This document shows, in pieces, positions 1,605 to 20,230 of a DNA stretch of 32,725 nt. The notes beneath the pieces were generated by a model. That model made no database searches. It was given only the letters and a program-made list of their open reading frames with translations, and was not told where the DNA came from. The position numbers were made by a program, and so were the translations under genes. This DNA comes from Myxococcales bacterium. GTDB lineage: Bacteria; Myxococcota_A; Polyangia; Polyangiales; Houyiibacteriaceae. Location of the stretch: the NCBI GenBank assembly GCA_019637115.1, contig JAHBWH010000087.1:1-32725 (forward strand), read 5' to 3'. Numbering within the stretch: the stretch's first letter is position 1; each line of letters begins with the position of its first letter.

Positions 1605-3419
1605 ATGGACGCCCTCCCCTCTCTGATCGCCACCGTCCGACGCGCGCTCTACGCGCGCGAGCTGCTGCGCTGGACGGCGATCATGGGCGCGCTCGCTGGG
1701 CTCGTCGCGCTCGCGCTCGCGTTCTTCGCGCCGACCTGGCCGCGGCTCCCGCTCTTGGCGGCGCTCGCGATCGGGCCGATCGTCGGTCTGTGGAGGGCGC
1801 GGCGCCGCATGCCCTGCGAGGAGGACCTCGTCGTCTACGTCGACCTGAAGCTGGCGGCCGACCAGGCCGTGCTCTCGGCGTGGGAGAGCGCGCGGCGGCC
1901 GCAGGGTGCCTTCGACGAGCTCGCGCGCGAGGCCGCCGCGAAGCGCCTTCGCAGCGCGCGGCGGCGCGACGTCCGGCCCAAGGTGCTGGGCCGCGAGCTC
2001 TGGGGTCTGCCCGTCGCCGCGGGAGGCTACGCCGCCGCGCTGCTCCTGCCGATCCCACCACCCCCGCTCCCCGACGCAGGCGCCGACATCGTGCAGATCG
2101 CCGAGCCCGAGGCGCTCACCCGGCTCGAGCGGCTCGAGGCCTACGCGCGCGACGACGAGCACCGCCAACGGCTCGAGGCCCTCGCTCGCGAGGCCGCCAC
2201 GCTGCGCGAGCGGCTCGCCGAAGGTATGGAGCGGCGCGAGGCCCTGGACGCGCTCGAGCGGCTGCGCGAACAAGCGGAGCGGTCGCGCTCGCCCGAGCGC
2301 CCCGAAGAGCGGCGCGCCCGCGACGCCGCCGTCGAGGCGCTGCAGGCCGAGCAGGAGATGAGCGAGGCGCTCGCCGAGCGCGACCTCGAGGCGCTCGATC
2401 GCGCGGTCGAGCGCGCGGCGGCGCGGCGGGAAGCCTCGGACCGCGAGCGCGCGCGCGAGGCGCTGCAGCGGGCGGCGGAGGCGGCACGCGCGGAGGGCGA
2501 CGAGGCGCTCGCCGAGTCGCTGCTGCGACGGGACCGGCTGCTGAACCGTCGCTCGGCGCAGGCGGAGCTCGCGCGCGAGCTCTCGGAGGCGATGCCCGAG
2601 CTTGCGGGGCTCCGCAGCGAGCTCGAGCGGCTCTCGCGCGACGGCGAGGGCGAAGGCCTGAACCAAGCGATGGTCGACGCGATGCGCGAGGCGTGGTCGC
2701 GCCTCTCGGCGGAGGAGCGGCGCCGGCTCGCCGAGGGCCTCCGTGACGCGCAGGCGGCGGAGAACACCGCCGCGCGTGAGGCGGGCCAGCAGGGCGAGGG
2801 CGCGCCGATCTCGGCCGACGAGTACGAGCGGCGGCTGCGCGAGGCGCTGGAGAACCTCGATCGCCTGCAGGTGCAGGCGGGTGGGAGCGGCGAGGGCGGG
2901 ATGCCGATGCCCGGCCAGGGCTCCGGGCGCCAGGGCTCTGGTCACGGGCAGGGCTCCGGTCAGGGCCAGGGCTCTGGTCAGGGCCAGGGCTCTGGTCAGG
3001 GCCAGGGCTCTGGTCAGGGTCAGGGCTCTGGTCAGGGGCAGGGCTCTGGTCAGGGGCAGGGCTCTGGTCAGGGGCAGGGCTCTGGTCCGGGGCAGGCGCA
3101 AGGGTCCGGCTCCGGCGCCTCGGGCTCCCCCGGCCAGGGCGGCGGGCGCGGTGAGCGTGGGGGCCAGACCGACGCGCTCCCCGCAGACGACGGGACGCTC
3201 GCGCGTGTGCGCCCCTTGCTCGGCCCCGGCGCGCCCAGCCGGAGCTGGGTCGAGTGGGTCGACCCCGAGGGCATGCCCGTCAGCGAGCGCGGGGATGGCG
3301 CCGGCGGCGCGACCGGCGACCCGACCCGCGGCGCGGCGGGGGGCATCGAGCGCGCGCCGATCCCCGAGGACTACCACGAGCACGTCCGGACGTTCTTCGG
3401 TCCCGGAGGCTCACGATGA
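1605..3419 (+). CDS. DUF4175-like membrane protein with long coiled coil and Gly-Gln-Ser repeat tail
   Basis: 604 residues from ATG 1605. Two membrane segments lie at about 23-42 and 48-64, and a third at about 128-145. Between them is a cytosolic stretch that includes CEEDLVVYVDLKLAADQAVL. Residues about 165-420 are a highly charged Glu/Arg/Ala heptad region, almost certainly coiled coil. Residues about 440-505 are (GQGQGS)n, encoded by an exact 18-bp repeat, followed by a Gly-rich tail. Large membrane and coiled-coil proteins of the DUF4175 type are found near MoxR/DUF58/VWA genes, and this one opens that locus. It may be the scaffold of the complex (inference). The start is uncertain: ATG 1488 has a much better Shine-Dalgarno. 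The family name is tentative. Confidence 0.7.
   Translation: MDALPSLIATVRRALYARELLRWTAIMGALAGLVALALAFFAPTWPRLPLLAALAIGPIVGLWRARRRMPCEEDLVVYVDLKLAADQAVLSAWESARRPQGAFDELAREAAAKRLRSARRRDVRPKVLGRELWGLPVAAGGYAAALLLPIPPPPLPDAGADIVQIAEPEALTRLERLEAYARDDEHRQRLEALAREAATLRERLAEGMERREALDALERLREQAERSRSPERPEERRARDAAVEALQAEQEMSEALAERDLEALDRAVERAAARREASDRERAREALQRAAEAARAEGDEALAESLLRRDRLLNRRSAQAELARELSEAMPELAGLRSELERLSRDGEGEGLNQAMVDAMREAWSRLSAEERRRLAEGLRDAQAAENTAAREAGQQGEGAPISADEYERRLREALENLDRLQVQAGGSGEGGMPMPGQGSGRQGSGHGQGSGQGQGSGQGQGSGQGQGSGQGQGSGQGQGSGQGQGSGQGQGSGPGQAQGSGSGASGSPGQGGGRGERGGQTDALPADDGTLARVRPLLGPGAPSRSWVEWVDPEGMPVSERGDGAGGATGDPTRGAAGGIERAPIPEDYHEHVRTFFGPGGSR
2949..3092 (+). repeat. 18-bp perfect-period minisatellite encoding GQGQGS
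   Basis: Eight copies of an 18-bp unit beginning CAGGGCTCTGGT start at 2949, 2967, 2985, 3003, 3021, 3039, 3057 and 3075. Substitutions are few and mostly silent (GGC/GGT/GGG). Shorter degenerate copies flank it (GQGSGRQGSGH before, GPGQAQGSG after). The uniformity points to recent expansion by slippage or unequal crossover. The encoded tail should be flexible and disordered. Confidence 0.9.
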
Positions 3420-3477: not shown

Positions 3478-4491
<1,014 letters not shown>

Positions 4492-4493
4492 CG

Positions 4494-6575
4494 ATGCGCC
4501 GCTGCTCGCGCGCCTCCTCGTGGCTCGCCCTCGCCGCGCTCGCCTGCTCGCTCGCCGCGCGGCCCGCGATCGCGCAGGACGACGCGAGCGCCCCCGTCGC
4601 CGTCGACGCCGTCGGCCTCTTCGGCCCTGAGCTGCACCTCCCGGCGCGCCACATCCCCGTGCGCGTCACCGTCCGCAACCGCACGGCCGCGCCGCTCCGG
4701 GGCCGCGTCATCGTCGAGTCCTCGGATTGGCGAGAGCGCTCCGAGCGCCACGGCGTCGCCCTCGACTTGCCCCCGCGCGGCGAGCGCACGGTCGAGCTGA
4801 CGGTCCTCGCGCGCGAGTCGGGGACGCTCGTCGCGGGCTTCGAGCTCGGCGGCCGGCGCGTCGCGTCGCGTCACCTCTCGATCGCCTACAACGCCGCGGC
4901 CGAGGGTCTCGTCGTGCTCGCCGATCCTCCTCGGATCCGCGGCAGCCTGCTCGACGTCCAGACCGAGCAGTTCGTGCGCCACGGCGGGACGAGCATCGTG
5001 AACATGCCGGTCGGCGTCATCTCCTTCGACGCGACGAGCGGCGAGCCGCTCGCGCCGACGCGCGCGTCGGGGTGGCACGCCGCGCGCCTCGTGGTCGCGA
5101 GCGCGCCCACGCTCGAGCGGCTCTCGCCGACGCAGCGCGACGCGCTCTTCGACTGGCTGCGCGGCGGCGGAGAGCTCGTCGTCTTCCTCCGCTCCCCCGA
5201 GGACCTCCGCGCGCCCGCGATGCAGGCGATGGCGCCGCTCACCTGGCGGCCCGACGACGACCCGACCCCCTCCGCCCTCGTGCCCACGGGCGCGCCCGCG
5301 GCCCGGATCGTCGCGAGCACCGATCGCGCGGAGCCGCGCGAGTACGGGATCTCGGTCCCCGTCGGCTTCGGGCGCGTGGAGGTCGTCCGCTACGATGGCA
5401 CCGCGCCGCCCTACGTCGACGCGCCCGAGACGCGCCGGCTCGTCGAGCAGATCGCGGGGCGGCCCCGCCGGGCGGGCGCGGAGCTCCCAATGTTCCGGCC
5501 CGGGGCGCCCGAGTCCTTCGACGATTGGTCGGGCGGCTGGACCTTCCGACCCGTGCGCTCCTACCTCGATCCGAACGAGTCCTTCCGCCCAGCGCTGGGC
5601 TTCGTCGCGATCCTGCTCCTGCTCTACGTGATCGTCGTCGGCCCGCTGAACTTCAGCTGGGTCGCGCGCAAGAACCGACCGACGCTCGCCCTGATCACCA
5701 CGCCCATCGCGGCGTTCGTCTGCCTCGCCCTGCTGCTCGGCGTCGGCTACGTCGGCAAGGGCACGACGATGCGCTACCGCGCCGTCGGTCTCCTCGAGCT
5801 CGTCGAGGGCGAGCCGAGCGGCCCCGAGCGCCGCTACCTCGGCCTCTTCCTCACGCGCCCGGCGACCTTCGACCTCGCCGTGCCAGAGCGCGGCACCACG
5901 AGCCTCGTGCACGGCGTCGGCGCGCGGGGGCTGAAGGTCGCGAGCCACGGCGAGCGCTCCATCGTGGAGGACCTGCAAGGCGGCCTGTGGGAGACGCTCT
6001 TCCTCCGCGAGGATCGGCTCTCGGGGCTCGGCGGCGCCGTGACGCTCGAGCGCGAAGGCGGCCACCTCGTGGCCGTGCGCAACGAGAGCCGCGTGACGCT
6101 GCGGGGCGCCGTCGTGCTCGACATGTCCGGCAACGCCTACGTGGTCGGTGACGTCGCGCCCGGCGCGCGCGTCGAGATCGCGCGCGCCCCGAGCGAGGCG
6201 CTCGGCAGCACCGAGCCGATGTTCTGGAGCGAGCACGATCCGAAGGTCGCGCGCGTCGCGCGGCTCCTCGGCGTGCCCGCCGACCAATCCGGGGCGGTCT
6301 ACGGCGTCGCGCAGCTCATGGGCGGCTCGCTCGTCGGCCCGTGGCCGGCGCTCTACGCGCAGATCGATCCCGAGAGCGAGGCGCCGCTCGCGGACCGCTT
6401 CGTCCGCGAGCGCGAGCTCCGCTTCGTCCGCGTCGTGCCCTACCTCGCGCGATCCCAGTCGGCGGGCCGCGCGCCGGACGGGCCCGAAGAGGAGGCCGCC
6501 GCGATGGTCGATCAGCCGCTCGGTCTCGACGAGCTGGAGCTGCAACGAGTCGGCCCCATCGGAGGTGCGCCGTGA
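4494..6575 (+). CDS. Exported membrane protein of a MoxR/ABC locus (glutamine-amidotransferase-like fold suspected)
   Basis: 693 residues from ATG 4494. The N-terminus has a classical signal peptide ending around ARPAIAQ. GTG 4488 would add two residues and overlap the MoxR stop. A periplasmic part contains LSPTQRDALFDWLRGGGELV (about 205-225), the pattern of a class I amidotransferase-like Rossmann fold, although I see no catalytic Cys-His-Glu triad. Two membrane helices follow, PALGFVAILLLLYVIVVGPL (about 366-385) and one at about 396-418, then a soluble C-terminal domain. Proteins with this layout recur beside ABC transporter, DUF58 and VWA genes; no function is established. The last codons overlap the ABC ATPase start. 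It probably links the cytosolic ATPases to the outer face of the membrane (inference). Confidence 0.8.
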   Translation: MRRCSRASSWLALAALACSLAARPAIAQDDASAPVAVDAVGLFGPELHLPARHIPVRVTVRNRTAAPLRGRVIVESSDWRERSERHGVALDLPPRGERTVELTVLARESGTLVAGFELGGRRVASRHLSIAYNAAAEGLVVLADPPRIRGSLLDVQTEQFVRHGGTSIVNMPVGVISFDATSGEPLAPTRASGWHAARLVVASAPTLERLSPTQRDALFDWLRGGGELVVFLRSPEDLRAPAMQAMAPLTWRPDDDPTPSALVPTGAPAARIVASTDRAEPREYGISVPVGFGRVEVVRYDGTAPPYVDAPETRRLVEQIAGRPRRAGAELPMFRPGAPESFDDWSGGWTFRPVRSYLDPNESFRPALGFVAILLLLYVIVVGPLNFSWVARKNRPTLALITTPIAAFVCLALLLGVGYVGKGTTMRYRAVGLLELVEGEPSGPERRYLGLFLTRPATFDLAVPERGTTSLVHGVGARGLKVASHGERSIVEDLQGGLWETLFLREDRLSGLGGAVTLEREGGHLVAVRNESRVTLRGAVVLDMSGNAYVVGDVAPGARVEIARAPSEALGSTEPMFWSEHDPKVARVARLLGVPADQSGAVYGVAQLMGGSLVGPWPALYAQIDPESEAPLADRFVRERELRFVRVVPYLARSQSAGRAPDGPEEEAAAMVDQPLGLDELELQRVGPIGGAP
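6561..6566 (+). promoter_or_regulatory. Ribosome-binding site deciding the ABC ATPase start
   Basis: GGAGGT lies 5 nt before GTG 6572, inside the coding end of the preceding gene. It fixes the GTG as start even though this overlaps the upstream TGA (GTGA), and it indicates translational coupling. Confidence 0.75.
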
Positions 6576-7501
6576 TCCGCGTCGAGGGCGTGTCGCATCG
6601 CTTCGGCGCGATGCAGGTGCTGCACGACATCTGGTTCGAGGTCCCCGCGGGCACCGTCTTCGGCTTCATCGGGCCGAACGGCGCCGGCAAGACCACCACG
6701 CTGCGGATGATGGCCACGCTCCTCGAGCCCGACGAGGGCCGCATCCTCGTCGACGGCCACGACGTCGTCGAGCACCCAGCCGAGGTGCGGCGGGTGCTCG
6801 GCTTCATGCCGGACGGCTTCGGCGTCTACGAGCGCGTCACCGTGAGCGAGTACCTCGAGTTCTTCTCGGCGGCCTACGCGATCCCGCGCGAGCGTCGCGC
6901 GCGGAACCTCGAGGCGGTGATGGAGCTGACGGACCTCGGCCCCCTCCGCGACCGCCTCGTCGCCGCGATGTCGAAGGGCATGAAGCAGCGGCTCGCGATC
7001 GCGCGCACGCTGCTCCACGACCCGAAGGTGCTCATCCTCGACGAGCCCGCGAACGGCCTCGACCCGCGCGCGCGCATCGAGATGCGCGAGCTCATCGAGC
7101 AGCTCCAGCAGCTCGGCAAGACCGTGGTCCTCTCGAGCCACATCCTCACCGAGCTCTCGGACATGGTCAGCGCGGTCTGCATCCTCGAGAAGGGCCGCGT
7201 GCTCGCCGCGGGTCCGGTCGAGCGCATCGGTCGGCAGCTCCGACCCGAGCGCGCGGTGAAGCTGCGGCTGCTCGAGTACCCCGAGGGCTGCGACGCGCCC
7301 TTCCGCGAGCTGCCCGACGTCACGCACGTCGAGCGCGGGCCCGAGGGTCACCTCCGAATCACGTACCACGGCGGCGACGAGACGGTCGCCGTGATCGTCG
7401 CTCGCGCGGTCGGCGCGAGCCTCCGCGTCGTCCGGGTCGAGCCCGAGCGCGACGACCTCGAGCACATCTTCCTCGAGGTCACGCGAGGAGAGCTGCAATG
7501 A
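6572..7501 (+). CDS. ABC-2 type transporter ATP-binding protein
   Basis: 309 residues from GTG 6572, set by GGAGGT. Walker A is GPNGAGKT (34-41), the signature segment MSKGMKQR (133-140), Walker B LILDEPANGLD (154-164), and the switch histidine is H190. The Q-loop region reads LGFMPDGFGVYERVTVSEYL, where Pro-Asp stands in place of Gln, and the signature is SKGMKQR instead of LSGGQ. Both variants are known from ATPases of the gliding/export (GldA-like) and drug/Na+ exporter groups. It probably powers the permease encoded next, with which it overlaps by 4 nt (ATGA). The C-terminal 80 residues form a small accessory domain. The substrate is unknown. Confidence 0.93.
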   Translation: MIRVEGVSHRFGAMQVLHDIWFEVPAGTVFGFIGPNGAGKTTTLRMMATLLEPDEGRILVDGHDVVEHPAEVRRVLGFMPDGFGVYERVTVSEYLEFFSAAYAIPRERRARNLEAVMELTDLGPLRDRLVAAMSKGMKQRLAIARTLLHDPKVLILDEPANGLDPRARIEMRELIEQLQQLGKTVVLSSHILTELSDMVSAVCILEKGRVLAAGPVERIGRQLRPERAVKLRLLEYPEGCDAPFRELPDVTHVERGPEGHLRITYHGGDETVAVIVARAVGASLRVVRVEPERDDLEHIFLEVTRGELQ

Positions 7502-9486
7502 GCGCGAGCCCCGACACCATGGCGTCCGCGACGCCCGGGCCGTCTCCCGCGACGCCGTCGTGGCGCCGCTTCTTCGACGACCCGAACCCGATCTTGGTCA
7601 AGGAGCTCCGCACCACGCTGCGCGCGAGCCTCTTCGTCCGCTTCCTCTACCTCAGCACGGGCCTCGTGGCGCTGCTCGTCGTCGGCATCGGCGGCGCCGC
7701 GGCCGGCGGCAACGAGGCCCCCGCCGAGGTCGGGCAGATCCTCTTCCAGGTCTTCTTCGGGGGCGCGCTCACGATCCTCTGCCTGGTCGCGCCCTCGTAC
7801 GCCGCGACCTCGCTCACGAGCGAGAAGGAGACGGGCACCTACGAGTCGCTCGTGCTCACGGGCATGGACCCCGCCCGCATCGTCTGGGGAAAGTTCCTCG
7901 CGAGCTACGCGGTCTTCGCGCTCGTGCTCGTCGCCTTCGCGCCGATCGTCGGCATCGCCTTCCTCTTCGGCGGGACCTCGCCTTGGCACGTGCTGATCGG
8001 CTTCTACGGCCTCCTGCTGGTGCTCGGCCCGGCCATCGCGCTCGGCGTCGCGCTCTCCGCGCGCCTGCGCTCCACGCGCGTCGCGATCCTGATCGCGCTC
8101 ATCACCTTCGTGCCCGCCGCCATCATCGGGGCGAGCGCGATGAGCGGGCTCGGCTACGCGGCGCGCAGCGAGTGGGGCGTGAGCATGCAGGGGCCCTTCT
8201 GGTTCACCGAGGCGCTGGCGAGCCGCTTCTTCGAGCTCGACACCTTCCTCCTGCTCGGCGTGCTGCCGCTCTACGCCTCGGGGATGATGGTGTGGTTCTT
8301 CTTGGCGAGCGCCATCGCGGGTGTCCGCCCGGCCGCCGAAGATCGCTCGACGCCGTTCAAGCATTGGGCGCTCGCAGCGCTCGCTGGCCTGCTCGCGACC
8401 ACCTTCGGCGTGACCTCGCTCTTCGGCTCGGGGCGCGACGCCGGCATCGGCTCGTTCGTGCTCACCGGCTTCGCGGGCCTCGTCGTGCTGCAGCTCGCGC
8501 TCCTCTTCACCAACGAGCCCCCCCTGCCGCCGCGGCTGTGGGAGCTGCGACAGGAAGGCCGAGGCGCGCTCGGCAAGCTCGCGGGGCTCTTCGGGCCGGG
8601 CGCGGCGCCCACCGCGCGCTTCGGCGCGGTCGTCGTGGTCGCGGCGTCGGTCGGCGCGGGCCTCGCGGCAGCGCTCTCGCGCCACCTGCAGCATCCAAGC
8701 TGGGACGACCACGCGCAGGCCGACGCGGCCATCGCCGTGGTCGCACTCGGTCACGCGGCGGTGGGGCTCTTCGTGCTGATGTTCGGTGCGTGGCTGCGGG
8801 TGATCCTCCGCAGCGGCGTCGCCTCGCGCGTCATCACGCTCTCTGCGCTCTTCGCGCTCGGGATCATCCCCTTCTTCGTAGCCCTCCTCGCCGCGACGGG
8901 GATGGGCAGCTTCGAGGAGAGCTCCGGCGTGCTCTTGGTAACACCGGTCTCACACCTGATCACGGGCGGCTTCGTGATGGATGGGAAGACCGAGCGCGCC
9001 ATCGAGGTGCTCGTTCCAGCGTCGTTCTACGGGCTCCTCGCCGTGATCTTCTGGAGCCTGCTCGAGGCGCGCGTGCGCGGGGTGGGCAAGCGCGTCGCCG
9101 AGCAGCGCGCGCTGCGCGAACGACGCGCCGAGGAGGCGGCCGCGAGCCGACCGAGCTTCACGCCGCCGGTCGGCGAGGTCATCGCGGCCATCGCCGCGGG
9201 CGCGCCGCTCGACGTCGCGGTCGCCGGGGGCGCGCCGCTCGCCGGGGTCGCACACCTTGCCGAGCCGGGTGAGGCGGCTCCGCGAGCGTTCGCGTTGGAC
9301 GGTGCGAGCGCGGGTGGTGCGAGCACGGGTGGCGCGAGCGCAGGCGGCGCGAGCACGGGTGACACGAGCACCGGTGGTGCGAGCGCGAGCAGCGCGAGCT
9401 CGGGCGGCCCGATGGGTGGCACGAGCAGGGGCGACGCGAGCGCGGACTCGCCTGACGAGGAGCCCGACCGCGGAGATCCCGCGTGA
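7498..9486 (+). CDS. ABC-2 type transporter permease with Ser/Gly repeat tail
   Basis: 662 residues. ATG 7498 overlaps the ATPase stop, with GAGGAG upstream. The N-terminus has the amphipathic segment typical of ABC-2 permeases (NPILVKELRTTLR, about 30-42). It is followed by about ten to twelve hydrophobic helices up to about residue 520, including a LTSEKETGTYESLVLTGMD cytosolic loop that matches the coupling region of this class. The last about 120 residues are soluble, ending in Gly-Ala-Ser-Thr pentapeptide repeats and an acidic tail. It is fused neither to a second ATPase nor to a substrate-binding domain. Together with the ATPase it probably forms a homodimeric exporter or a mechanical energiser of the locus (inference). 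Confidence 0.88.
   Translation: MSASPDTMASATPGPSPATPSWRRFFDDPNPILVKELRTTLRASLFVRFLYLSTGLVALLVVGIGGAAAGGNEAPAEVGQILFQVFFGGALTILCLVAPSYAATSLTSEKETGTYESLVLTGMDPARIVWGKFLASYAVFALVLVAFAPIVGIAFLFGGTSPWHVLIGFYGLLLVLGPAIALGVALSARLRSTRVAILIALITFVPAAIIGASAMSGLGYAARSEWGVSMQGPFWFTEALASRFFELDTFLLLGVLPLYASGMMVWFFLASAIAGVRPAAEDRSTPFKHWALAALAGLLATTFGVTSLFGSGRDAGIGSFVLTGFAGLVVLQLALLFTNEPPLPPRLWELRQEGRGALGKLAGLFGPGAAPTARFGAVVVVAASVGAGLAAALSRHLQHPSWDDHAQADAAIAVVALGHAAVGLFVLMFGAWLRVILRSGVASRVITLSALFALGIIPFFVALLAATGMGSFEESSGVLLVTPVSHLITGGFVMDGKTERAIEVLVPASFYGLLAVIFWSLLEARVRGVGKRVAEQRALRERRAEEAAASRPSFTPPVGEVIAAIAAGAPLDVAVAGGAPLAGVAHLAEPGEAAPRAFALDGASAGGASTGGASAGGASTGDTSTGGASASSASSGGPMGGTSRGDASADSPDEEPDRGDPA
9301..9405 (+). 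repeat. 15-bp tandem repeat in the permease tail
   Basis: Seven degenerate 15-bp units (9301, 9316, 9331, 9346, 9361, 9376, 9391), type GGTGCGAGCGCGGGT, encode GASAG, GASTG, DTSTG and similar. The period keeps the frame, and the repeat lies after the last membrane helix, so expansion is probably tolerated. Confidence 0.85.
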
Positions 9487-10361
9487 CCGACGCGACGGGC
9501 AGCTCGCTCCTCTCGCCGGACTTCATCCGCCGGCTCGCGCGCCTGCGGCTGCTCGCGCGGCGGCGCTTCGCCGGCGCGGCGGGGGGTGCGCGGCGGAGCC
9601 GGCGCCAGGGGCAGAGCGTCGAGTTCTCCGATCACCGACCCTACGCGCTCGGCGACGACGTGCGGCGCATCGACTGGAACGCCTACGCGCGCCTCGAAGA
9701 GCTCATCCTGCGGCTCTACGTCGCCGAAGAGGACCTCGTCGTGCACCTCCTCGTGGACACGAGCGCGTCGATGGGCTTCGGCGATCCCACGAAGCTCGAG
9801 GTCGCCAAGCGCATGGCGGCCGCGCTCGCTTACATCGGCCTCTCGGGGAGCGAGCGCGTCGGCGTCGCGCCTTTTGCGGAGGGGCTCGGCGACCCGCTCG
9901 CGCCGACCCGCGGGCGGCGGCGAATCGGGACGGTGCTGCGCTTCCTGGACGGCCTGACGCCCTCGGGCGAGACGGACCTCGCCCGCACCGTCGAGGCCTT
10001 CGTGGCGCGCCGCGCGCGACCCGGGCTCGTCGTCGTGCTCAGCGATCTGCTCGATCCGGGCGGGTACCAGCGGCCCCTCGATCGTCTGATCACGGAGCGC
10101 CACGAGCCCGTGGTCGTGCAGGTGCTCGACGCCGAAGAGCTCGACCCGACGCCGGGCGGCGACTTCACACTCATCGACGCGGAGCGCGGTGAGCGCGTCG
10201 ACGTCTCGCTCGACGCCCGCACCGTGGCGGCCTACCGGCGCCGCGTCGCGGCCTTCCTCGAAGGCGCCGAGGCGTACGCGAAGCGGCGCGGCATCTCGCA
10301 TCTGCGCGTGGGCGGCGAGGTCTCGTTCGAGGACGCGCTCCTCGCGTACCTGAGGGCGTAG
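9483..10361 (+). CDS. DUF58 domain protein (VWA-like partner of MoxR)
   Basis: 292 residues. GTG 9483 overlaps the permease stop (GTGA). The DUF58 signature FSDHRPYALGDDVRRIDWNA is at about 48-67. A VWA-like metal site VDTSASM (D92, S94, S96) follows, then the LSDLLDPGG strand near 180. There are no membrane helices, so it should be cytosolic; the length is normal for the short DUF58 type. DUF58 proteins are nearly always co-encoded with MoxR ATPases, and the MoxR gene is five genes upstream. It is followed by the G-rich island, so downstream genes may depend on readthrough or on a new promoter. Confidence 0.93.
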   Translation: MTDATGSSLLSPDFIRRLARLRLLARRRFAGAAGGARRSRRQGQSVEFSDHRPYALGDDVRRIDWNAYARLEELILRLYVAEEDLVVHLLVDTSASMGFGDPTKLEVAKRMAAALAYIGLSGSERVGVAPFAEGLGDPLAPTRGRRRIGTVLRFLDGLTPSGETDLARTVEAFVARRARPGLVVVLSDLLDPGGYQRPLDRLITERHEPVVVQVLDAEELDPTPGGDFTLIDAERGERVDVSLDARTVAAYRRRVAAFLEGAEAYAKRRGISHLRVGGEVSFEDALLAYLRA

Positions 10362-10372
10362 TCGATGTCTAT

Positions 10373-10773
10373 CAGTCCCTTGCCCGTGCCCCTGCCCCTG
10401 CCCTTGCCCGAACGAAGAGGGCGTCGTCGGAGCGATCTTTTGGATCGAGGGCGTCTCGTGGGGCACGGGCAGGGGCGCGGGCACAGGCACGGGCAAGGGC
10501 GGGCGCTGGGTCGAAAACGGGGGCAGGCGGGAGAACAGGGGCAGGGGCACGAGCGGGGCCGCTTGGGGTCGGTGCTGGGCCGAGGCCTGGTCCCCGGGTG
10601 GGGGGAGGCGGAACGCAACGGGCGAGCACGGGTGCAGGGGGAGGGGCAGGGGCAGGGCTTGGGGTCGGTGCTGGGCCGAGGCCCAGTAGTGTGGGTTTTG
10701 AGGCATGGGCATGCGCAAGGCCGAGCACGGGTGTTAGGGCACGGGCAAGGGCAGGGGCAGGGGCAGGGGACTG
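10373..10773. repeat. G-rich hexamer repeat island bounded by inverted repeats
   Basis: The 440 bp between the DUF58 and BatA-like genes is the only large gap in the locus and is almost entirely (GGGCAN)n-type sequence. The left arm, 10373-10410, is C-rich on the plus strand. The right arm, 10742-10773, is its reverse complement over 24 consecutive bases; then, after a 6-bp indel, it matches again over GGGACTG. Inside, a perfect 27-bp direct repeat starting GCTTGGGGTCGGTGCTGGGC occurs at 10561-10587 and 10657-10683, and CGAGCACGGGTG occurs at 10623 and 10722. Together these suggest a 96-99 bp tandem unit. An open frame at 10365-10805 translates to Gly/Gln/Arg low complexity and is not accepted as a gene. 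Confidence 0.85.
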
Positions 10774-10801
10774 CTTGGCTTGCTTTCACTTCGAGGGCGC
10801 C

Positions 10802-12721
10802 GTGAACCTCCTCTCGCCCTGGAACCTGCTCTGGCTCGGGCTCGTCGCGCCGCTCGTGCTCCTCTACGTGCTGCGGCGACGCCGGGTCGAGCGCGTCGTC
10901 GGCTCGACGCTCCTCTGGCAGGCCGCGCTCCGCGACCTCCGCGCCGAGCGGCCTTGGAAGCGGCTCGTGACGAGCGTCGCCCTGCTGCTCCAGCTCCTCG
11001 CGCTCATCGCTGGCGCGATCGCGCTCGCGCGGCCCGCCGGCGCCGGCGGCGTCCCCGCGGGCGCGACGCTCGCGCTCGTCGTCGACGTCTCGCCTTCGAT
11101 GGGCGCGCGCGACGGCGAGCGTCGACGCCTCGATCGCGCGCGCGCGCTCGGCAGTGAGCTCGCCCGCGCGATGCCCCCCGGCGGCCGCATGATGGTCGTC
11201 GCGGCGGGCCCCGAGCCGATCGTGCTCGCGCCGCCCACCGCCGATGGCGCCTCGCTCGCGCGCGCGCTCGACGCCTTGCAGCTTCGTGGGGGTGCCGCCG
11301 ACCTCGAGGGCGCCACCTCGCTCGCCGCCGAGCGCCTCCGCGACGCGCCCGCGGGGAGCCACGTCGTGCTGGTCACCGACGGCGCCGAGGACGGCGAGCT
11401 CGCGCTCGTGGGCCGCGTGGTGCCGGTCGAGGTGCGGCTCGTGGGCCCTGGAGCGGGCGCGCCCACCGACAACGTCGCGATCGTCGCCGCCGACGCGCGC
11501 CCGCGCGCCGGCGAGGGGTCCGATCGCGCCGACGTCTTCGCGCGCCTGCGCAACTTCGGCGACGCGCCGGCGGACGTCTTCCTCACCGCCTCGCTCGAGG
11601 GCCGCGAGGGCGCCGTCGCCTCGCGCCGGCTCACGCTCGCGCCCGGCGCCAACGAGGCCGTGGTCATGGCCGCCACGCTCCCGCCCGATCCGCACGGACG
11701 CGCGGCGGTGGTCCGCGTCGCGCTCTCGCGCCCCGGCGCCACTCGCGAAGGCCTCGGCGACGACCTCGATCTCGACGACGTCGCCGTCGTGCCGAGCCCG
11801 GGCGCGCGTCGCCTGCCCGTCTTTCTGGTCGGCGCGGCGCCCGCGCCCGTCGAGCGCGTGCTCCGCGCGGACCCCGAGGTCGAGCTCTTCGGCACCTCGC
11901 TCGCGGCGCTCGCCGCGCGCGACGCCGACGCGCCCGCCCTCGACGGCTTCTTCGTCTACGCCGGTGAGGTGCCGGCCGATCCGCCCCGTGGCGATTCGCT
12001 GGTCGTCGCACCCCACGGGCCACGGGTCTTCGAGCTCACGCTCGGCGAAGAAGCGGCCGGGCCCGCGCTCGTCACCTGGGACGAATCCGATCCGCGCCTG
12101 CGCTTCGTGGGGCTCAGCGACGTCCACCTCGCGCGCGCGCGCCCGATCGTCGGTGGCCGCCCGCTCGTCGAAGCGCAGATCGGCAGCGTGATCTCGGTCG
12201 TCGAGCGGCCGAGCGGCGAGACGCTGCTGCTCGCGTTCGACCCCGCGACGAGCGATTGGCCACGGCAACCGAGCTTCGTCGTCTTCTTTCGCAACCTCCT
12301 CGAGCGCGCGCGACAGCGGCGCGCCGAGGGCGGCGTGGCGCCCGGACCGCTCGGCGACCCGCTCCGGATCCCCGCGCCCGACGGCGCCCGGGTCGCGGTC
12401 GAGAGCCCCTCGGGCGCGCGCTTCGAGGGTCGCAGCCGCGGTGGGGTCGCCGTGGTCCCGGTCGACGCGGCGCCCGGCGTCTACCGCGTGCGCCAGAACG
12501 ACTGGCAGCCGCGCGAGCTGCACGCGCTGCGCAACCTGCTCGACGCGCGCGAGAGCGACGTCCGCGCGCGCCTGCGCGTCACCGCCGCCGACGGTGAGGC
12601 CCGCGTCGCCCAAGCCTCGCCGCTCGACCACCGCGAGTCCTGGCCGTGGATCGTCGCGCTGCTCCTCGCGCTCCTCGTCGCCGAAGCGTGGTGGGCCAGC
12701 CGGAAGGGAGCGGTCGCGTGA
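10802..12721 (+). CDS. BatA-like VWA membrane protein
   Basis: 639 residues from GTG 10802. The N-terminus has two membrane helices (about 8-25 and 57-77) separated by a basic linker containing VERVVGSTLLWQ, the BatA/aerotolerance N-terminal domain layout. A VWA domain follows with metal site DVSPSM (D95, S97, S99), then a long extracytoplasmic beta-rich region. A C-terminal helix PWIVALLLALLVAEAWWASR is at about 615-634. The Asp-x-Ser-x-Ser metal motif is intact; the Thr and Asp of the full site were not checked. Bat proteins work with MoxR and DUF58. Its stop overlaps a GTG that begins a chimeric micro-ORF, because the gene end has been copied downstream. Confidence 0.88.
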   Translation: MNLLSPWNLLWLGLVAPLVLLYVLRRRRVERVVGSTLLWQAALRDLRAERPWKRLVTSVALLLQLLALIAGAIALARPAGAGGVPAGATLALVVDVSPSMGARDGERRRLDRARALGSELARAMPPGGRMMVVAAGPEPIVLAPPTADGASLARALDALQLRGGAADLEGATSLAAERLRDAPAGSHVVLVTDGAEDGELALVGRVVPVEVRLVGPGAGAPTDNVAIVAADARPRAGEGSDRADVFARLRNFGDAPADVFLTASLEGREGAVASRRLTLAPGANEAVVMAATLPPDPHGRAAVVRVALSRPGATREGLGDDLDLDDVAVVPSPGARRLPVFLVGAAPAPVERVLRADPEVELFGTSLAALAARDADAPALDGFFVYAGEVPADPPRGDSLVVAPHGPRVFELTLGEEAAGPALVTWDESDPRLRFVGLSDVHLARARPIVGGRPLVEAQIGSVISVVERPSGETLLLAFDPATSDWPRQPSFVVFFRNLLERARQRRAEGGVAPGPLGDPLRIPAPDGARVAVESPSGARFEGRSRGGVAVVPVDAAPGVYRVRQNDWQPRELHALRNLLDARESDVRARLRVTAADGEARVAQASPLDHRESWPWIVALLLALLVAEAWWASRKGAVA

Positions 12722-12892
12722 CCGAGCTCTTCCGCTTCCCGCAGCCCTACGCTTGGCTGTCGATCGTCGCGCTGCTCCTCGCGCTCCTCGTCGCCGAGGC
12801 GTGGTGGGCCAGCCGGAAGGGAGCGGTCGCGTGCTCTTTGCGCTGATCGTCGCCGAGGCGTGGTGGGCCAGCCGGAAGGGAGCGGTCGCGTG
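12649..12892 (+). repeat. Triplicated gene junction (end of BatA-like gene, start of next gene)
   Basis: The last 72 bp of the BatA-like gene (12649-12720, GATCGTCGCGCTGCTCCTCG onward to GCGTG) recurs at 12762-12833 with one visible change. A shorter third copy (about 50 bp) lies at 12843-12892. The start of the next gene is also duplicated: GTGAC(C/T)GAGCTCTTCCGCTT occurs at 12718 and 12890. The spacing between GTGs is 113 and then 59 bp, neither divisible by three, so each copy is read in a different frame. The true downstream gene starts at the last copy. Confidence 0.92.
12718..12846 (+). pseudogene. Chimeric 42-codon micro-ORF from junction duplication
   Basis: GTG 12718 opens a frame of 42 residues. 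It starts with the first 11 residues of the downstream VWA protein in near-identical form (VTELFRFPQPYA) and continues into a copy of the C-terminal membrane helix of the BatA-like protein (IVALLLALLVAEAWWASRKG). It ends CSLR after a frame slip. It keeps the natural overlapping GTGA start, so it is probably translated by coupling. The product would be a single-pass membrane peptide. It is probably a by-product, but it could be a small regulatory subunit. Confidence 0.6.
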
Positions 12893-12893
12893 A
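12831..12893 (+). pseudogene. Second micro-ORF repeating the BatA-like C-terminal helix
   Basis: GTG 12831 begins a 20-residue frame, VLFALIVAEAWWASRKGAVA, identical in its second half to the C-terminus of the BatA-like protein. It ends at TGA 12891-12893, overlapping the GTG of the next true gene. It overlaps the first micro-ORF in another frame. Translation of the true downstream gene may pass through this chain of overlapping starts. Confidence 0.45.
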
Positions 12894-15823
12894 CTGAGCT
12901 CTTCCGCTTCTCGCAGCCCTACGCGCTCGCCTTCGGGCTCCCGCTCCTGGCGCTGCTCTTCTGGCGCCTCGCGCGCCTGCCGCGCGTCTTCGGCCGGCGC
13001 CACCGCGCGATCCAGTTCGTGATGGGCGCGGCGGGCGTCGCGGTGGTGCTCGCGCTCGCGGGGCTCGAGCTCGGTCGCAGCGCCGACCGCGTCGCGACGA
13101 TCGTCGTGCTCGACCGCAGCCGGAGCGCCGACGAAGGCGCGCTCGGCGACGACACCTCGGGGACGGATCCGACCCGCGCCGCGCTCCGAGGGCTCGAGCG
13201 CGCGGTGCCGACCATGCGCGACGGCGACCAAGCGGGCCTCGTCGTCTTCGGCGCGGGCGCCGAGACCGAGCTCTTGCCCTCGCCGCGCCCGCCGATCGGC
13301 CTGCCGCGCGCGAGCGTGGCGCGCGACGCGAGCGACCTCGCCGCCGGGCTCCGCCGCGCGCTCGCGGATCTGCCCGCCGAGCACACGGGCCGCGTCGTGC
13401 TCGTCAGCGACGGCCTCGAGAACCGCGGCGACGCGCTCGCGGCCGCGAGCGTGGCGGCGGGACGGGGTGTGGTCGTCGACGTCGTGCCGATCGAGCGCGC
13501 GCCGCGCCCCGAGATCGCCGTCGAGAGCGTGCGCCTGCCGCGGACGGCGCGTCCCGGCGAGCCGATCGACGTCCGCGTCGTCACGCGATCGACGACCGAC
13601 ACGCGCGCGCGGGTGCGCGTGCTGCGGGGCGGCGCGGCGCTGGCGGACGCCGAGGTGGACCTGCGCGCGGGCACCGACGCGCTCGTGCTGCGCGACCTGG
13701 CGCCGGAGAGCGGCGTCCACCGCTACGACGTCCTCGTCGAGCCGCTCGAGGAGGGCGCGGACTCGGGGCGCGACAACAACGAGGGCGGCGCGTTCTTGCG
13801 GGTGCTCGGGGGGTCGCGGGTGCTCGTCGCGGCCGACGCGCCGGAGGAGGCGAGCGCGCTGGCCCGCGCGATCCGGGAGGGCGGCCTCGAGGTCGCGCTC
13901 AGCGACGCGCGCACCTTCCCCGTCGACCTCGGGGAGCTCGCCGGCTACGACCTGGTCGTGCTCAGCGATCTGAGCGCGCGGGCGCTCACCGAGGCCCAGA
14001 TGCTCGCGCTCGGGAGCTACGTCCGAGACCTCGGCGGCGGGCTGCTGATGGCGGGCGCGCGGCGCAGCTTCGGCCTCGGCGGGTGGGCCTACACGCCGGT
14101 CGAGGACGTGCTCCCGGCGCGCTTCGATCTGCGGCAGCGGCGCGACCGGATGTCGCTCGCGATGATCATCGCCATCGACAAGAGCGGCTCGATGATGGCG
14201 CCCGCGGCGCCGGGCCGGACGAAGCTCGACCTCGCGAACGAGGCGGCCGCGCGCTCCGCGCTGCTGCTCTCGCCGGCCGATCGCGTCGGCGTGATGCACG
14301 TCGACACCGCGGTCGAGTGGACGCAGCCGATGGTGTCGGTCTCGGACCCGAACGCGATCGCGGCGCGCTGCCGCGCGGCGCAGCCGGGCGGGGGCGGCAT
14401 CTACGTCAACATCACGATGCGCGAGGCGTACGCGGCGCTCCGGGCCGAGCGCACGCAGCTCAAGCACTTCCTGCTCTTCAGCGACGGGATGGACTCCGAG
14501 GAGATGGGCGGCACGCGCGAGATGGTCACGGCGGCCCTGCGAGACCGCATCACCACCTCGGTCGTCTCGATGGGCGCGGGCCACGACACGCCCGAGCTCG
14601 AGCATCTGTCTCGGCTTGGCGGGGGGCGCTTCTACATCGTGGACGACATGACCGAGCTCCCGCGGATCTTCACGCAAGAGACCGTGGAGGCGTCGCGGGC
14701 GGCGCTCGTCGAGGAGCCGTTCCGGCCGGGCGTGGGCCTCGTCGCGGCGGCGACGCGCGGGATCGACTTCGGCGCCGCGCCGCCGCTCGGGGGGTACGCG
14801 GTCGTGCACGCGCGCGGGCGCGCGAGCGAGCTGCTCTCGGCGAGCGACGAGGACGCGCTCTTGCTCCAATGGCAGCATGGGGTGGGTCGCTCCGCGGTCT
14901 TCACGACCGACGTGGGCGCAGAGCTCGGGCGGGGGTGGCTGCGTTGGCCGGGGTACGCGACGCTCTTCGACCAGCTCGCGCGCGACCTCGCGCGCAGCCC
15001 CGAGCGTCGCGACGCGCGCGTGAGCGTCACGATCGAGAGCGGCGTCGGCCGGGTGCGCGTCGAGGCCGTCAGCGCGGGCGGGCAGTACCGCAACTACCTC
15101 GAGCTCGGCGGCGTGGTCGCGGCGCCGGGGGGACGCAGCGCGGCCGTGGAGCTCCGGCAGACCGGCGCGGGGCGCTACGAGGGCACCTTCGACGCCGACG
15201 CGCCGGGACCCTACCTCGTGACCGTACGCGAGGGCGCGGGCGACGACGCGGCGATGGTCGGCAGCGCTGGTGTCGTGCAGGCGCGCGGCAGCGAACTACG
15301 CGGGGAAGGCACCAACCACGTGCTGCTCGCGCAGATCGCGGCGCTCACCGGCGGGAAGGTGCGCCGCGACCTCGACGCGATCTTCACCGATCGACCGCCG
15401 CGCACCTGGCGGTACGAGCCCCTCTGGCCGCCGCTCGTCATCGCGGCGCTGCTGCTCTTCTTGCTCAGCGTCGCGATGCGCCGCCTCGTGTTGCCCCCGA
15501 ACCTCTGGGGGCGGGCCTGGGCGCGGGTCACGCGCCCCTTCCGGCGAAGTGCAGCAGCGCGCGGACGCGAGCCGATGACGTCGTCGCCCGCGACGCTCGA
15601 CGCGCTGACCGCGCACAAGCGCGAGCGCGCACGCGGGGACGATGCGACCGAGGCCCGCGAGCTCCGCGCGGCCCGAGAGGCCGCGGCGGGAGACGGGCCG
15701 AGCGCCGAGCCGAGCGGGGTGCCCGCGGCGAGGCGGGCCGAGGAGGACGCGGAGCCTCCGACGCCGAGCACCGATCCGTCGTCGCTCGCGGAGCAGCTCT
15801 TGGCGAAGAAGCGCCGCCGGTGA
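12890..15823 (+). CDS. Large membrane protein with VWA and glutamine-amidotransferase-like domains
   Basis: 977 residues from GTG 12890, the last of the duplicated junction copies. Two N-terminal helices (about 11-28 and 42-60) are followed by a first VWA-like domain with DRSRS (75-79). Then come a beta-sandwich, an amidotransferase-like Rossmann segment (about 310-420, ending GGGLLMAGARRSFGLGGW), and a second VWA domain with an intact DKSGS metal site near residue 429. A second beta-rich region, a helix at about 846-865 (PLVIAALLLFLLSVAMRRL) and a charged cytosolic tail complete the protein. This composite layout is found in membrane proteins paired with BatA-like and DUF58 genes. It ends the locus, and 1.5 kb of decayed DNA follows. 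Its ligand is unknown. Confidence 0.88.
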   Translation: MTELFRFSQPYALAFGLPLLALLFWRLARLPRVFGRRHRAIQFVMGAAGVAVVLALAGLELGRSADRVATIVVLDRSRSADEGALGDDTSGTDPTRAALRGLERAVPTMRDGDQAGLVVFGAGAETELLPSPRPPIGLPRASVARDASDLAAGLRRALADLPAEHTGRVVLVSDGLENRGDALAAASVAAGRGVVVDVVPIERAPRPEIAVESVRLPRTARPGEPIDVRVVTRSTTDTRARVRVLRGGAALADAEVDLRAGTDALVLRDLAPESGVHRYDVLVEPLEEGADSGRDNNEGGAFLRVLGGSRVLVAADAPEEASALARAIREGGLEVALSDARTFPVDLGELAGYDLVVLSDLSARALTEAQMLALGSYVRDLGGGLLMAGARRSFGLGGWAYTPVEDVLPARFDLRQRRDRMSLAMIIAIDKSGSMMAPAAPGRTKLDLANEAAARSALLLSPADRVGVMHVDTAVEWTQPMVSVSDPNAIAARCRAAQPGGGGIYVNITMREAYAALRAERTQLKHFLLFSDGMDSEEMGGTREMVTAALRDRITTSVVSMGAGHDTPELEHLSRLGGGRFYIVDDMTELPRIFTQETVEASRAALVEEPFRPGVGLVAAATRGIDFGAAPPLGGYAVVHARGRASELLSASDEDALLLQWQHGVGRSAVFTTDVGAELGRGWLRWPGYATLFDQLARDLARSPERRDARVSVTIESGVGRVRVEAVSAGGQYRNYLELGGVVAAPGGRSAAVELRQTGAGRYEGTFDADAPGPYLVTVREGAGDDAAMVGSAGVVQARGSELRGEGTNHVLLAQIAALTGGKVRRDLDAIFTDRPPRTWRYEPLWPPLVIAALLLFLLSVAMRRLVLPPNLWGRAWARVTRPFRRSAAARGREPMTSSPATLDALTAHKRERARGDDATEARELRAAREAAAGDGPSAEPSGVPAARRAEEDAEPPTPSTDPSSLAEQLLAKKRRR

Positions 15824-15857
15824 TGGGCAATAGCCTCGTGGGCCCGCCTCGTGGGCC

Positions 15858-16081
15858 CGGACGCGGTTCGAGTAGGGGAACCGCTCGTGGGCCCGGACGC
15901 GGTTCGAGTAGGGGAACCGGAGGGCTCCGGACGCCGGAGGGCTCCGGACGCGGTTCGAGTAGGGGGGACGGTGAGTTCGGACGCGGTTTGAGTAGGAGGG
16001 GGGGACGGTTAGTTCGGACGCGGTTTGAGTAGGAGGGGGGTGAGGAGCGGCGGGTTGGTTCGGACGCGGTTTGAGTAGGAG
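15858..16081. repeat. Six copies of CGGACGCGGTTYGAGTAGG
   Basis: Copies start at about 15858, 15894, 15945, 15978, 16015 and 16061, with spacing of 33-51 bp. Copies 1-3 read GGTTCGAG and copies 4-6 read GGTTTGAG, so the array has two sub-families, each locally expanded. Spacers are short and themselves repetitive (GGGCTCCGGACGCCGGAG; GGGTGAGGAGCGG). The unit is not palindromic, and the spacers share sequence. Confidence 0.85.
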
Positions 16082-16198
16082 GGGGGTGAGGAGCGGTGGG
16101 TCGCGGCGGGTCGCGGCGGTCCGGAGAGTCCAGCAGGGGCGTTGGGACGGCGCGGCTACCCCCCTTCGGAGGGTTGCGACCGACGACGGACGCAGGAG

Positions 16199-17368: not shown

Positions 17369-18802
17369 ATGGACACCGCCGCGCTGCGCGCCTACTGCGA
17401 ACGACGTTGGGACGAGTCGATCGTCCCCGAGCTCGAGGCCTACATCCGCATCCCCGCCCTCAGCCCGCACTTCGACGCGGACTGGGCCGCGAACGGTCAC
17501 CTCGAGGCCGCGGTGGAGCACGCGCGGCGTTGGTGCGCGGAGCGGCCGGTCGCGGGGCTGAGCGTCGAGGTCGTGCGCCTCCCCGGCCGCACGCCGGTGC
17601 TCTTCATGGAGATCCCCGCCGCGAACGGCGGCCGCGCCGATCGCACCGTCTTGCTCTACGGGCACCTCGACAAGCAGCCCGAGATGAGTGGCTGGGACGA
17701 GGGGAAGGGGCCGTGGATCCCCGTCCGCGAGGGCGACAAGCTCTTCGGCCGCGGCGGCGCGGACGATGGCTACGCGGCCTACGCTTCGCTCACCGCGATC
17801 GAGGCGCTCCAGCAGCAGAGGCTCCCGCACGATCGCTGCGTGGTGCTCATCGAGGCCTGCGAGGAGAGCGGGAGCTTCGATCTGCCACCCTACCTCGAGC
17901 ACCTCGGCGCGCGCATCGGCTCACCCGAGCTCGTCATCTGCCTCGACTCCGGCTGTGGCAACTACGACCAGCTCTGGAGCACGACGTCGCTGCGCGGGCT
18001 CGTCGGCGGCGTGCTGACGGTCGACGTGATGGAGCCGACGCAAGACGGCGGCGTCTCGGGCGTGCACAGCGGCGACGCGAGCGGCGTCGTGCCCTCGACG
18101 ACGCGGATCCTCCGCGCGCTGCTCGACCGGGTCGAGGACGTCGCGACCGGCGAGATCCGCCTGGCGCCGTGTCGGACGGAGATCCCCGCGGCGCGCGCGG
18201 CGCAGGCCGAGGCGGCGGCCGCGATCCTCGGCGACGCGGTGTGGGCGAAGTTCCCGTTCATCAAGGGGGCGCGCCCCGTCGCCACGGGCGCGGAGGCGAT
18301 CCTGAACCGGACCTGGCGGCCTTTCCTCGAGGTCGTCGGCGTCGGGCACGTGCCCGGCTTGTCCGGCGGCAACGTCTTGCGGAGCCGCACCGCGCTGAAG
18401 CTCTCGATGCGGGTCCCGCCGCGTGTCGACGCGGCCGCGGCGTCGGCGGCGCTGAAGGACGCGCTCGAGTCGGACCCGCCCTACGGCGCGAAGGTCGCCT
18501 TCGAGGCCGAGCAGGCGGCCGACGGCTGGGACGCGCCGCCGCTCGCGCCTTGGCTCGAGGCCAGCCTCCAGCAGGCGAGCCAGACGTTCTTCGGCGCCGA
18601 CGCCGCTTACATGGGCGAGGGCGGGACGATCCCCTTCATGGGCATGCTCGGCGCGAAGTTCCCCGACGCGCAGTTCTGCATCACCGGCGTGCTCGGCCCT
18701 GCGTCGAACGCGCACGGGCCCAACGAGTTCCTGCACATCCCTTGCGGGAAGAAGCTCACCGCCTGCATGGCGAGCGTGCTGCACGACCTCGCGAGGCGCT
18801 GA
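17369..18802 (+). CDS. M20-family metallopeptidase (dipeptidase-like)
   Basis: 477 residues from ATG 17369. The M20 di-zinc site is complete in order: H99 and D101 in LLYGHLDKQP, D132 in GRGGADDGY, the catalytic and metal Glu pair E165-E166 in IEACEESGS, D193 in ICLDSG, and the late His in SNAHGPNEF. The length and these motifs match the carnosine-dipeptidase/ArgE-related branch that hydrolyses di- and tripeptides. There is no signal peptide, so it should be cytosolic. The lid-domain segment with GVHSGDASG (about 230) is present. The gene stands alone, bounded by decayed DNA upstream and a minisatellite downstream. The exact substrate cannot be told from sequence. Confidence 0.93.
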   Translation: MDTAALRAYCERRWDESIVPELEAYIRIPALSPHFDADWAANGHLEAAVEHARRWCAERPVAGLSVEVVRLPGRTPVLFMEIPAANGGRADRTVLLYGHLDKQPEMSGWDEGKGPWIPVREGDKLFGRGGADDGYAAYASLTAIEALQQQRLPHDRCVVLIEACEESGSFDLPPYLEHLGARIGSPELVICLDSGCGNYDQLWSTTSLRGLVGGVLTVDVMEPTQDGGVSGVHSGDASGVVPSTTRILRALLDRVEDVATGEIRLAPCRTEIPAARAAQAEAAAAILGDAVWAKFPFIKGARPVATGAEAILNRTWRPFLEVVGVGHVPGLSGGNVLRSRTALKLSMRVPPRVDAAAASAALKDALESDPPYGAKVAFEAEQAADGWDAPPLAPWLEASLQQASQTFFGADAAYMGEGGTIPFMGMLGAKFPDAQFCITGVLGPASNAHGPNEFLHIPCGKKLTACMASVLHDLARR

Positions 18803-18850
18803 CGCGTCGAGCGCGTTGCGCCACGCGTTTGGCGTTCTCGACGCGCTCTT

Positions 18851-19005
18851 CGGAACCGGACTCGGAACCGGACTCGGAACCGGACTCGGAACCGGACTCG
18901 GAACCGGACTCGGAACCGGACTCGGAACCGGACTCGGAACCGGACTCGGAACCGACTCGGAACCGGACTCGGAACCGGACTCGGAACCGGACTCGGGACC
19001 GGACG
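18851..19005. repeat. 12-bp minisatellite CGGAACCGGACT
   Basis: About 13 head-to-tail copies of a 12-bp unit. The ninth, at 18947, has lost one G (11 bp), and the last ends in a diverged CGGGACCGGACG. It lies in the 288-bp gap between the M20 and M23 genes. Reading frames across it give only Gly-Thr or Glu-Pro-Asp-Ser runs and shift at the 11-bp unit, so it is treated as non-coding. The rest of the gap shows nothing else. Confidence 0.93.
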
Positions 19006-19090: not shown

Positions 19091-20230
19091 ATGCCCGCGT
19101 GGACGGGCTCCGATCGCTCTGGCACCTTGCTGCCCGTGGTACGCATTGGGCTCCTCGTGGGGGGGACGCTTGTATCGGTCTTGGTCGGTGCGACCGCGGG
19201 CCTGACCGGGGCATCAGCTCCTCCCGTCGTCGATGAGGGAGATCGAGAGCGAGCTACAGCGGACGAAGCGGCGAGGGGGGCTTCCTCCCCCCACGCGCTC
19301 GAACGCGCAGAGCGCACGGGCGCCGACGAAGACGCCGCCGCCGCCGATGCGCTCGCGACCGCCGACGCGCTCGCGGGTGACGCCCTCACGGGCGATGTGC
19401 TCGCGGGCGACGCGCTCGCAGGCGACGCGCTCGCGGGCGACGCGCTCGCGGGCGACGCGCTCGGACGACGAGCATCTCGGGACCGCGCGATGGCGCGGGT
19501 GTGGCTCTCCGAGACGCGCGACTGTCACCGGCGCGGTCGGCGCCGCTTCTGTGATGGGCCCCGCCGCATGCCGGCGCCGACGGGCGAGGCGCTCGCGCGC
19601 GTCGAGCGGCTCGGCATCGGCACGCGCGAGGGCGTCGGCGCGATCCTCGGCCGCGCGGCGGACGAGGGGCTGCTCGCGGAGGTCCCGCCGCTCGTGGACG
19701 AGTCGCTCGTCTGGCCCGTCCCGCGTGGCTTCATGGGTCGCGGCTTCGGCTACACGCGCGAGGGCCGGCTCGCGGCGCGGCTCCACCGCGGCGTCGACAT
19801 CCCGGCGGCCGAAGGCGAGGAGGTGCGTGCGACGAACGCGGGCCTCGTGCTCTACGCGGACAACAAGCTGCGCGGCTATGGAAACCTCGTCGTGCTCCTA
19901 CACGCCAACGACACGCGCACCTTCTACGCTCACCTCAGCGAGGGCCTCGTCGCGGCGGGCGAGCGCGTGCGGCGCGGTCAGGTGATCGGCCGCGTCGGAC
20001 AGACGGGTCTCGCCGGCGGGCCGCATCTGCACTTCGAGTGGCGGCGCGGCGCGGTCTCACGGAACCCGTCGCGCCGCTTCGTCGAGCGGCCGACGCGCGA
20101 GCTGAGCGACGCCCTGCAGCGCGAGCAGTCGATCCGGCGGCACGACGGAGAGGCCCGCCTCGCGGAGGCACGCGCGCGGGCCGAGCGCACGCGCGCGTGG
20201 CGCGAGCGCGCGGCCCAAACGTCGCGTTGA
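19091..20230 (+). CDS. Membrane-anchored M23-family peptidase (LytM-like)
   Basis: 379 residues from ATG 19091 (AGGGAA just upstream); GTG 19070 would add seven residues. A membrane anchor or uncleaved signal (about 13-42, PVVRIGLLVGGTLVSVLVGA) is followed by an Ala/Asp/Gly/Leu pentapeptide repeat spacer (about 92-125). A linker containing two Cys comes next, then an M23 domain at about 210-325. Its zinc and catalytic residues are present: H232 and D236 in HRGVDIP, H281 in TFYAHLS, H312 and H314 in PHLHFEW. Such enzymes cut peptidoglycan cross-links or activate amidases; since all ligands are intact it is probably an active endopeptidase in the periplasm. A basic C-terminal helix of about 50 residues is added. 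Confidence 0.9.
   Translation: MPAWTGSDRSGTLLPVVRIGLLVGGTLVSVLVGATAGLTGASAPPVVDEGDRERATADEAARGASSPHALERAERTGADEDAAAADALATADALAGDALTGDVLAGDALAGDALAGDALAGDALGRRASRDRAMARVWLSETRDCHRRGRRRFCDGPRRMPAPTGEALARVERLGIGTREGVGAILGRAADEGLLAEVPPLVDESLVWPVPRGFMGRGFGYTREGRLAARLHRGVDIPAAEGEEVRATNAGLVLYADNKLRGYGNLVVLLHANDTRTFYAHLSEGLVAAGERVRRGQVIGRVGQTGLAGGPHLHFEWRRGAVSRNPSRRFVERPTRELSDALQREQSIRRHDGEARLAEARARAERTRAWRERAAQTSR
19376..19465 (+). repeat. 15-bp repeat encoding GDALA
   Basis: Six units of GGCGACGCGCTCGCG type at 19376-19465 encode consecutive GDALA/GDVLA/GDALT pentapeptides between the membrane anchor and the catalytic domain. Units three to five are almost identical, which suggests recent expansion of the spacer. 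Confidence 0.85.

Follow-up and report, generated by a model that had tools for sequence, protein, structure and literature searches.

The end of a gene for a BatA-type membrane protein (gene A) and the start of the gene behind it (gene B) stand in three tandem copies in this genome, with 113 and 59 bp between successive starts. This array is probably a lineage-specific short tandem duplication of at least two steps, tolerated between two intact genes, and the micro-ORFs that came with it are by-products, which possibly relay translational coupling from one gene to the other.

The triplicated junction and its operon

The window, the whole stretch of 32,725 nucleotides that was analysed, is an entire contig (C421) of a draft genome (G000) of 8.88 Mb, which is in 434 contigs and is 98% complete. 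The closest genome apart from this one, that of a congener whose protein B is 76% identical, is a Myxococcota MAG (G001, L007/L011). The features referred to below are as follows, with the upstream operon genes taken from Pfam and the gene call.

3478 to 4491, forward strand: MoxR-type AAA ATPase
4488 to 6575, forward strand: DUF4350-like protein
6572 to 7501, forward strand: ABC ATPase
7498 to 9486, forward strand: ABC-2 permease
9483 to 10361, forward strand: DUF58 protein
10802 to 12721, forward strand: gene A, membrane protein of 639 aa with a BatA N-terminal domain and a VWA domain (Pfam BatA PF07584, VWA_2 PF13519)
12641 to 12753, forward strand: junction copy 1, the end of gene A (last helix, SD, stop) and the first 12 codons of a B-like frame
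12704 to 12709, again 12817 to 12822 and 12876 to 12881, forward strand: Shine-Dalgarno-like AAGGGA within GGAAGGGAG, in the 22-nt upstream identity
12718 to 12846, forward strand: ORF2, 42 aa (MTELFRFPQPYAWLSIVALLLALLVAEAWWASRKGAVACSLR), the N-terminus of B fused to the C-terminal helix of A, with a GTGA overlap with A
12754 to 12831, forward strand: junction copy 2, the end of gene A (last helix, SD) as far as the GTG
12831 to 12893, forward strand: ORF3, 20 aa (MLFALIVAEAWWASRKGAVA), mostly the last helix of A, with a GTGC start inside ORF2 and ending in a GTGA overlap with B
12832 to 12925, forward strand: junction copy 3, the last part of the final helix of A, the SD, GTGA and the true start of B
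12890 to 15823, forward strand: gene B, VWA/GATase1-like membrane protein of 977 aa (Pfam PF13519, PF07090)

The genes upstream of A (3478-10361, forward strand) overlap by 4 nt at four consecutive junctions. The order of MoxR AAA, DUF58, BatA-VWA and a second VWA gene is the same as in MoxR - DUF58 - BatA/VWA operons of the aerotolerance type, and the coding sequences are in themselves ordinary. Unlike those operons, this locus holds ABC transporter genes and two expanded junctions. The second expanded junction is the gap between the DUF58 gene and gene A (10362-10801), which is filled by GGGCAG/CCCCTG-type hexamer repeats over about 440 nt; in the relatives G006 (L092) and G009 (L101) this gap is only about 3-6 nt. 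Downstream of gene B, GGACGCGGTTYGAGTAG is repeated six times (15848-16101) and is matched exactly nowhere else in the genome. Other strong tandem arrays on the contig lie at 2931-3096 (18-bp unit, nine copies), 18850-19004 (12-bp, 13 copies), 19363-19463 (15-bp, 6.7 copies) and 30442-30811 (186-bp, two copies).

Both genes that flank the array are intact. Gene A has a GTG start and a TGA stop at 12719-12721, and the alignment with its G009 orthologue begins at residue 1 at 10802. The alignment of protein B with that of the congener also begins at residue 1, with MTELFRF conserved. This suggests that 12890 is likely the true start of gene B, though an automatic call may begin at 12860.

The earlier note had claimed a junction triplicated at 113 and 59 bp, and the identities between the copies bear this out. 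Copy 1 (12641-12719) matches copy 2 (12754-12832) at 76 of 79 positions, copy 2 (12773-12831) matches copy 3 (12832-12890) at 55 of 59, and copy 1 (12660-12752) matches copy 3 (12832-12924) at 86 of 93. The best score on the self-diagonal of 12600-13000 was 68, at offset 113, while 60 first-order shuffles gave 13 or less. The start of B is present twice as 5'-coding sequence (12718-12753 and 12890-12925); in the middle copy only its GTG remains, followed directly by A-derived sequence. The 4 differences between copies 2 and 3 all fall within the first 15 nt of copy 3, with none in the next 44 nt. Across the three copies the differences are nested, since GAG is found in copies 2 and 3 and CTCCTC in copies 1 and 2.

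All three starts (12718, 12831 and 12890) are GTG and follow an identical CCAGCCGGAAGGGAGCGGTCGC. The 22 nt upstream of each are identical, and the predicted SD duplex is -8.2 kcal/mol in each case. The same note had placed a GTGA overlap at every start. This holds at 12718 and 12890 and fails at 12831, where the start reads GTGC and ORF2 and ORF3 overlap by 16 nt, the stop of ORF2 lying 13 nt beyond the middle GTG. Its statement that the micro-ORFs repeat the C-terminal helix of gene A was confirmed (IVALLLALLVAEAWWASRKGAVA).

The distance from the stop of A to the start of B is -4 nt at a single junction and +168 nt here, a total gain of 172 bp. Because 172 is 1 modulo 3, genes A and B now share one reading frame. 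Between them (12719-12889), the only stop in that frame is the TGA of gene A, and its loss would fuse both proteins.

Relatives and the base rate of tandem arrays

The junction was compared across 12 orthologous loci with a readable junction, those of the congener and eleven others, and all 12 have a single 4-nt overlap. In the congener, the A frame ending in ESWPWLAALVLFLFAIEAWWASRKGAVA and its stop overlaps MTELFRFAQPLALAVALP via GTGA. The eleven further loci (L012 to L022), as read from the printed frames, each have a single ATGA or GTGA overlap. By this comparison of sequences, the triplicated junction is the derived state and is so far private to this genome, with its polarity and age fixed only loosely because one other member of the genus is available.

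The base rate of tandem arrays was estimated from 1.06 Mb of G000 and from samples of three relatives (G001, G006 and G009). With a period of at least 30, G000 has 95 arrays in 1.06 Mb (about 90 per Mb), including 36 inside genes, 46 intergenic and 3 that overlap both a stop and a start. The period is a multiple of 3 in 34 of the 36 arrays inside genes, which indicates that arrays that break a frame persist mostly between genes. The 3 arrays over both a stop and a start compare with about 4 expected from the intergenic density at 149 tight junctions of around 100 bp each, a rough estimate that uses genes from our own simple gene caller. Arrays at junctions therefore show no excess over the intergenic rate. 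One region flagged as such an array (L159, 16050-16120) is merely a weak 34-bp repeat in which the start is not copied. The density in relatives is comparable: for periods of 30-250, there are 76 arrays per Mb in G000 versus 99 in G001, 118 in G006 and 34 in G009.

A targeted scan for copied gene-end junctions found four gene pairs in G000, and the same scan in smaller samples of the three relatives found none. In one of the four pairs (L164:17448-17699, on G000:C414), a thioredoxin-like gene has its leader and start three times over, spaced 93 and 91 bp apart, with ATGA kept at each. Its intermediate chimeric ORF (50 aa, 17478-17630) ends 31 nt short of the true start, so there is no complete relay, as expected of accidents. 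In relatives, the coding sequence directly upstream of the thioredoxin-like gene differs or is absent, and this case is therefore safest called a triplicated gene start and not a triplicated operon junction.

Possible hand-over of translation through the micro-ORFs

The A/B junction of the relatives is exactly a 4-nt overlapping pair of the kind in which termination-reinitiation has been described, with a stop/start overlap and an SD inside the upstream gene (PMC6728339, PMC10666635). Strict translational coupling was found in 13 of 14 tested overlapping pairs (PMC6728339). In reporters, hardly any coupling by termination-reinitiation is left at a spacing of about 20 nt, and the final 15 nt of the upstream gene are enough for reinitiation (PMC10666635). 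Going by that spacing, termination-reinitiation directly from A to B should be abolished at +168 nt. Unlike in the 4-nt pairs, the direct overlap of A and B is lost here, and any coupling would run through two micro-ORFs, with one step a 16-nt overlap.

The overlaps of A with ORF2, ORF2 with ORF3 and ORF3 with B are -4, -16 and -4, so that stop and start overlap at every step, and an SD stands ahead of each start. Since all the starts still have their ribosome-binding sites and every frame, by chance, reaches the next start, stepwise reinitiation is possible. Ribosomes leaving A would reinitiate at ORF2, then at ORF3 and then at B, and the micro-ORFs would passively relay the coupling of A and B over 168 nt, a distance at which it would otherwise be lost. 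The geometry of the overlaps and the identical ribosome-binding sites make this hand-over plausible. Some loss of ribosomes would be expected at each step, and the level of B would probably be lowered relative to A. Alternatively, ribosomes may initiate afresh at the SD of B itself.

It is improbable, in our estimate, that the triplication was kept by selection as a tuning device, in which the extra termination-reinitiation steps adjust the A:B ratio. The unbroken chain of overlaps with identical SDs and the strong distance dependence of published coupling would fit such a device. The differences in copy 3 would fit it too, though only post hoc: two of them introduce stop codons, at 12844-12846 and 12895-12897, into the frame of ORF2, each a short way from the next start, which puts the stop of ORF2 beside the start of ORF3. 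However, the array is in a single genome, junction arrays are not commoner than the intergenic rate predicts, and the second triplicated start (L164) lacks a complete relay. The right frame at both joins would also come about by chance in about 1 in 9 cases without selection. The reading we prefer is a tolerated duplication, from which a relay may have arisen passively.

Origin of the array and its wider meaning

The earlier note had offered a replication error frozen in an operon as one explanation, and our results support it: the array is in one genome only, the junction is single in the congener and eleven relatives, and both the roughly 90 tandem arrays per Mb and the second triplicated gene start agree with it. 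Like other bacterial short tandem duplications that arise by replication slippage or unequal exchange, this one is head-to-tail, has units of tens to hundreds of bp, and belongs to a class that is tolerated if no frame is broken. The copies are similar to one another, close relatives lack them and similar arrays lie elsewhere in the genome. Simply as a duplication, it is unremarkable. It differs from the usual case in that its unit spans a stop/start overlap and so gives rise to chimeric micro-ORFs, each with a ribosome-binding site. A literature search for duplicated overlapping gene junctions found nothing.

In the first step, slippage or unequal exchange would have copied about 113 bp, comprising the last helix of A, its stop, the SD and the first codons of B. 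A second, shorter event would have added the 59-bp repeat; a full copy followed by internal deletion is the other possibility, and a 113-bp unit reduced by internal deletions is indistinguishable from a 59-bp duplication. The duplication could be tolerated since it leaves the end of A and the start of B in place, and it may well have been neutral. One observation speaks against this account, as the clustering of differences in copy 3 is unexplained by simple drift after duplication. A templated origin of its odd 5' end (TGCTCTTTGCGCTGATCGTCG) was considered and rejected: the lone other genomic site within 2 mismatches, on C197, is unremarkable.

We also considered an artefact of assembly or amplification of the metagenome, in which strain variants of one junction were falsely joined. 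The genome is a draft in many contigs, and the differences between the copies are SNP-like, as such a false join would have them. Against this, the sequence at the joins occurs nowhere else in the genome, and assemblers do not invent such sequence without reads. The genome also contains numerous further tandem arrays and another triplicated start, and the nested sharing of differences is as expected of stepwise duplication. The uniqueness of the join sequence and the nested differences make a false join quite unlikely.

A search with the ORF2 peptide in 33 family genomes returned only its own copies, the C-termini of A and weak helix matches. The further suggestion that the triplication is a way of making small membrane peptides was unsupported, as ORF2 has no free-standing homologue there and there was no sign of selection. 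Functional small membrane peptides that mimic the C-terminal anchor of A and act on A or B as competitors or regulators are very improbable: ORF2 has an SD and a strongly hydrophobic helix (Kyte-Doolittle maximum of 1.99 over 19 residues) followed by RK, but no free-standing homologous peptide was seen in the 33 family genomes, there was no Pfam match, and any duplicated junction of these two membrane genes in this frame yields such peptides.

For the tolerated duplication that we favor, a broader generalization is conceivable, if unlikely: duplicating an overlapping junction might automatically make a chain of relay micro-ORFs that preserves coupling, and so provide a route for insertions into operons and for the birth of small chimeric membrane proteins. 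The locus is a natural test case in which two models of coupling make different predictions. If coupling works by local reinitiation, B would depend on the micro-ORFs; if B is initiated afresh, it would not. The locus also shows how overlapping genes can give rise, in one step, to small chimeric membrane ORFs that carry ribosome-binding sites of their own.
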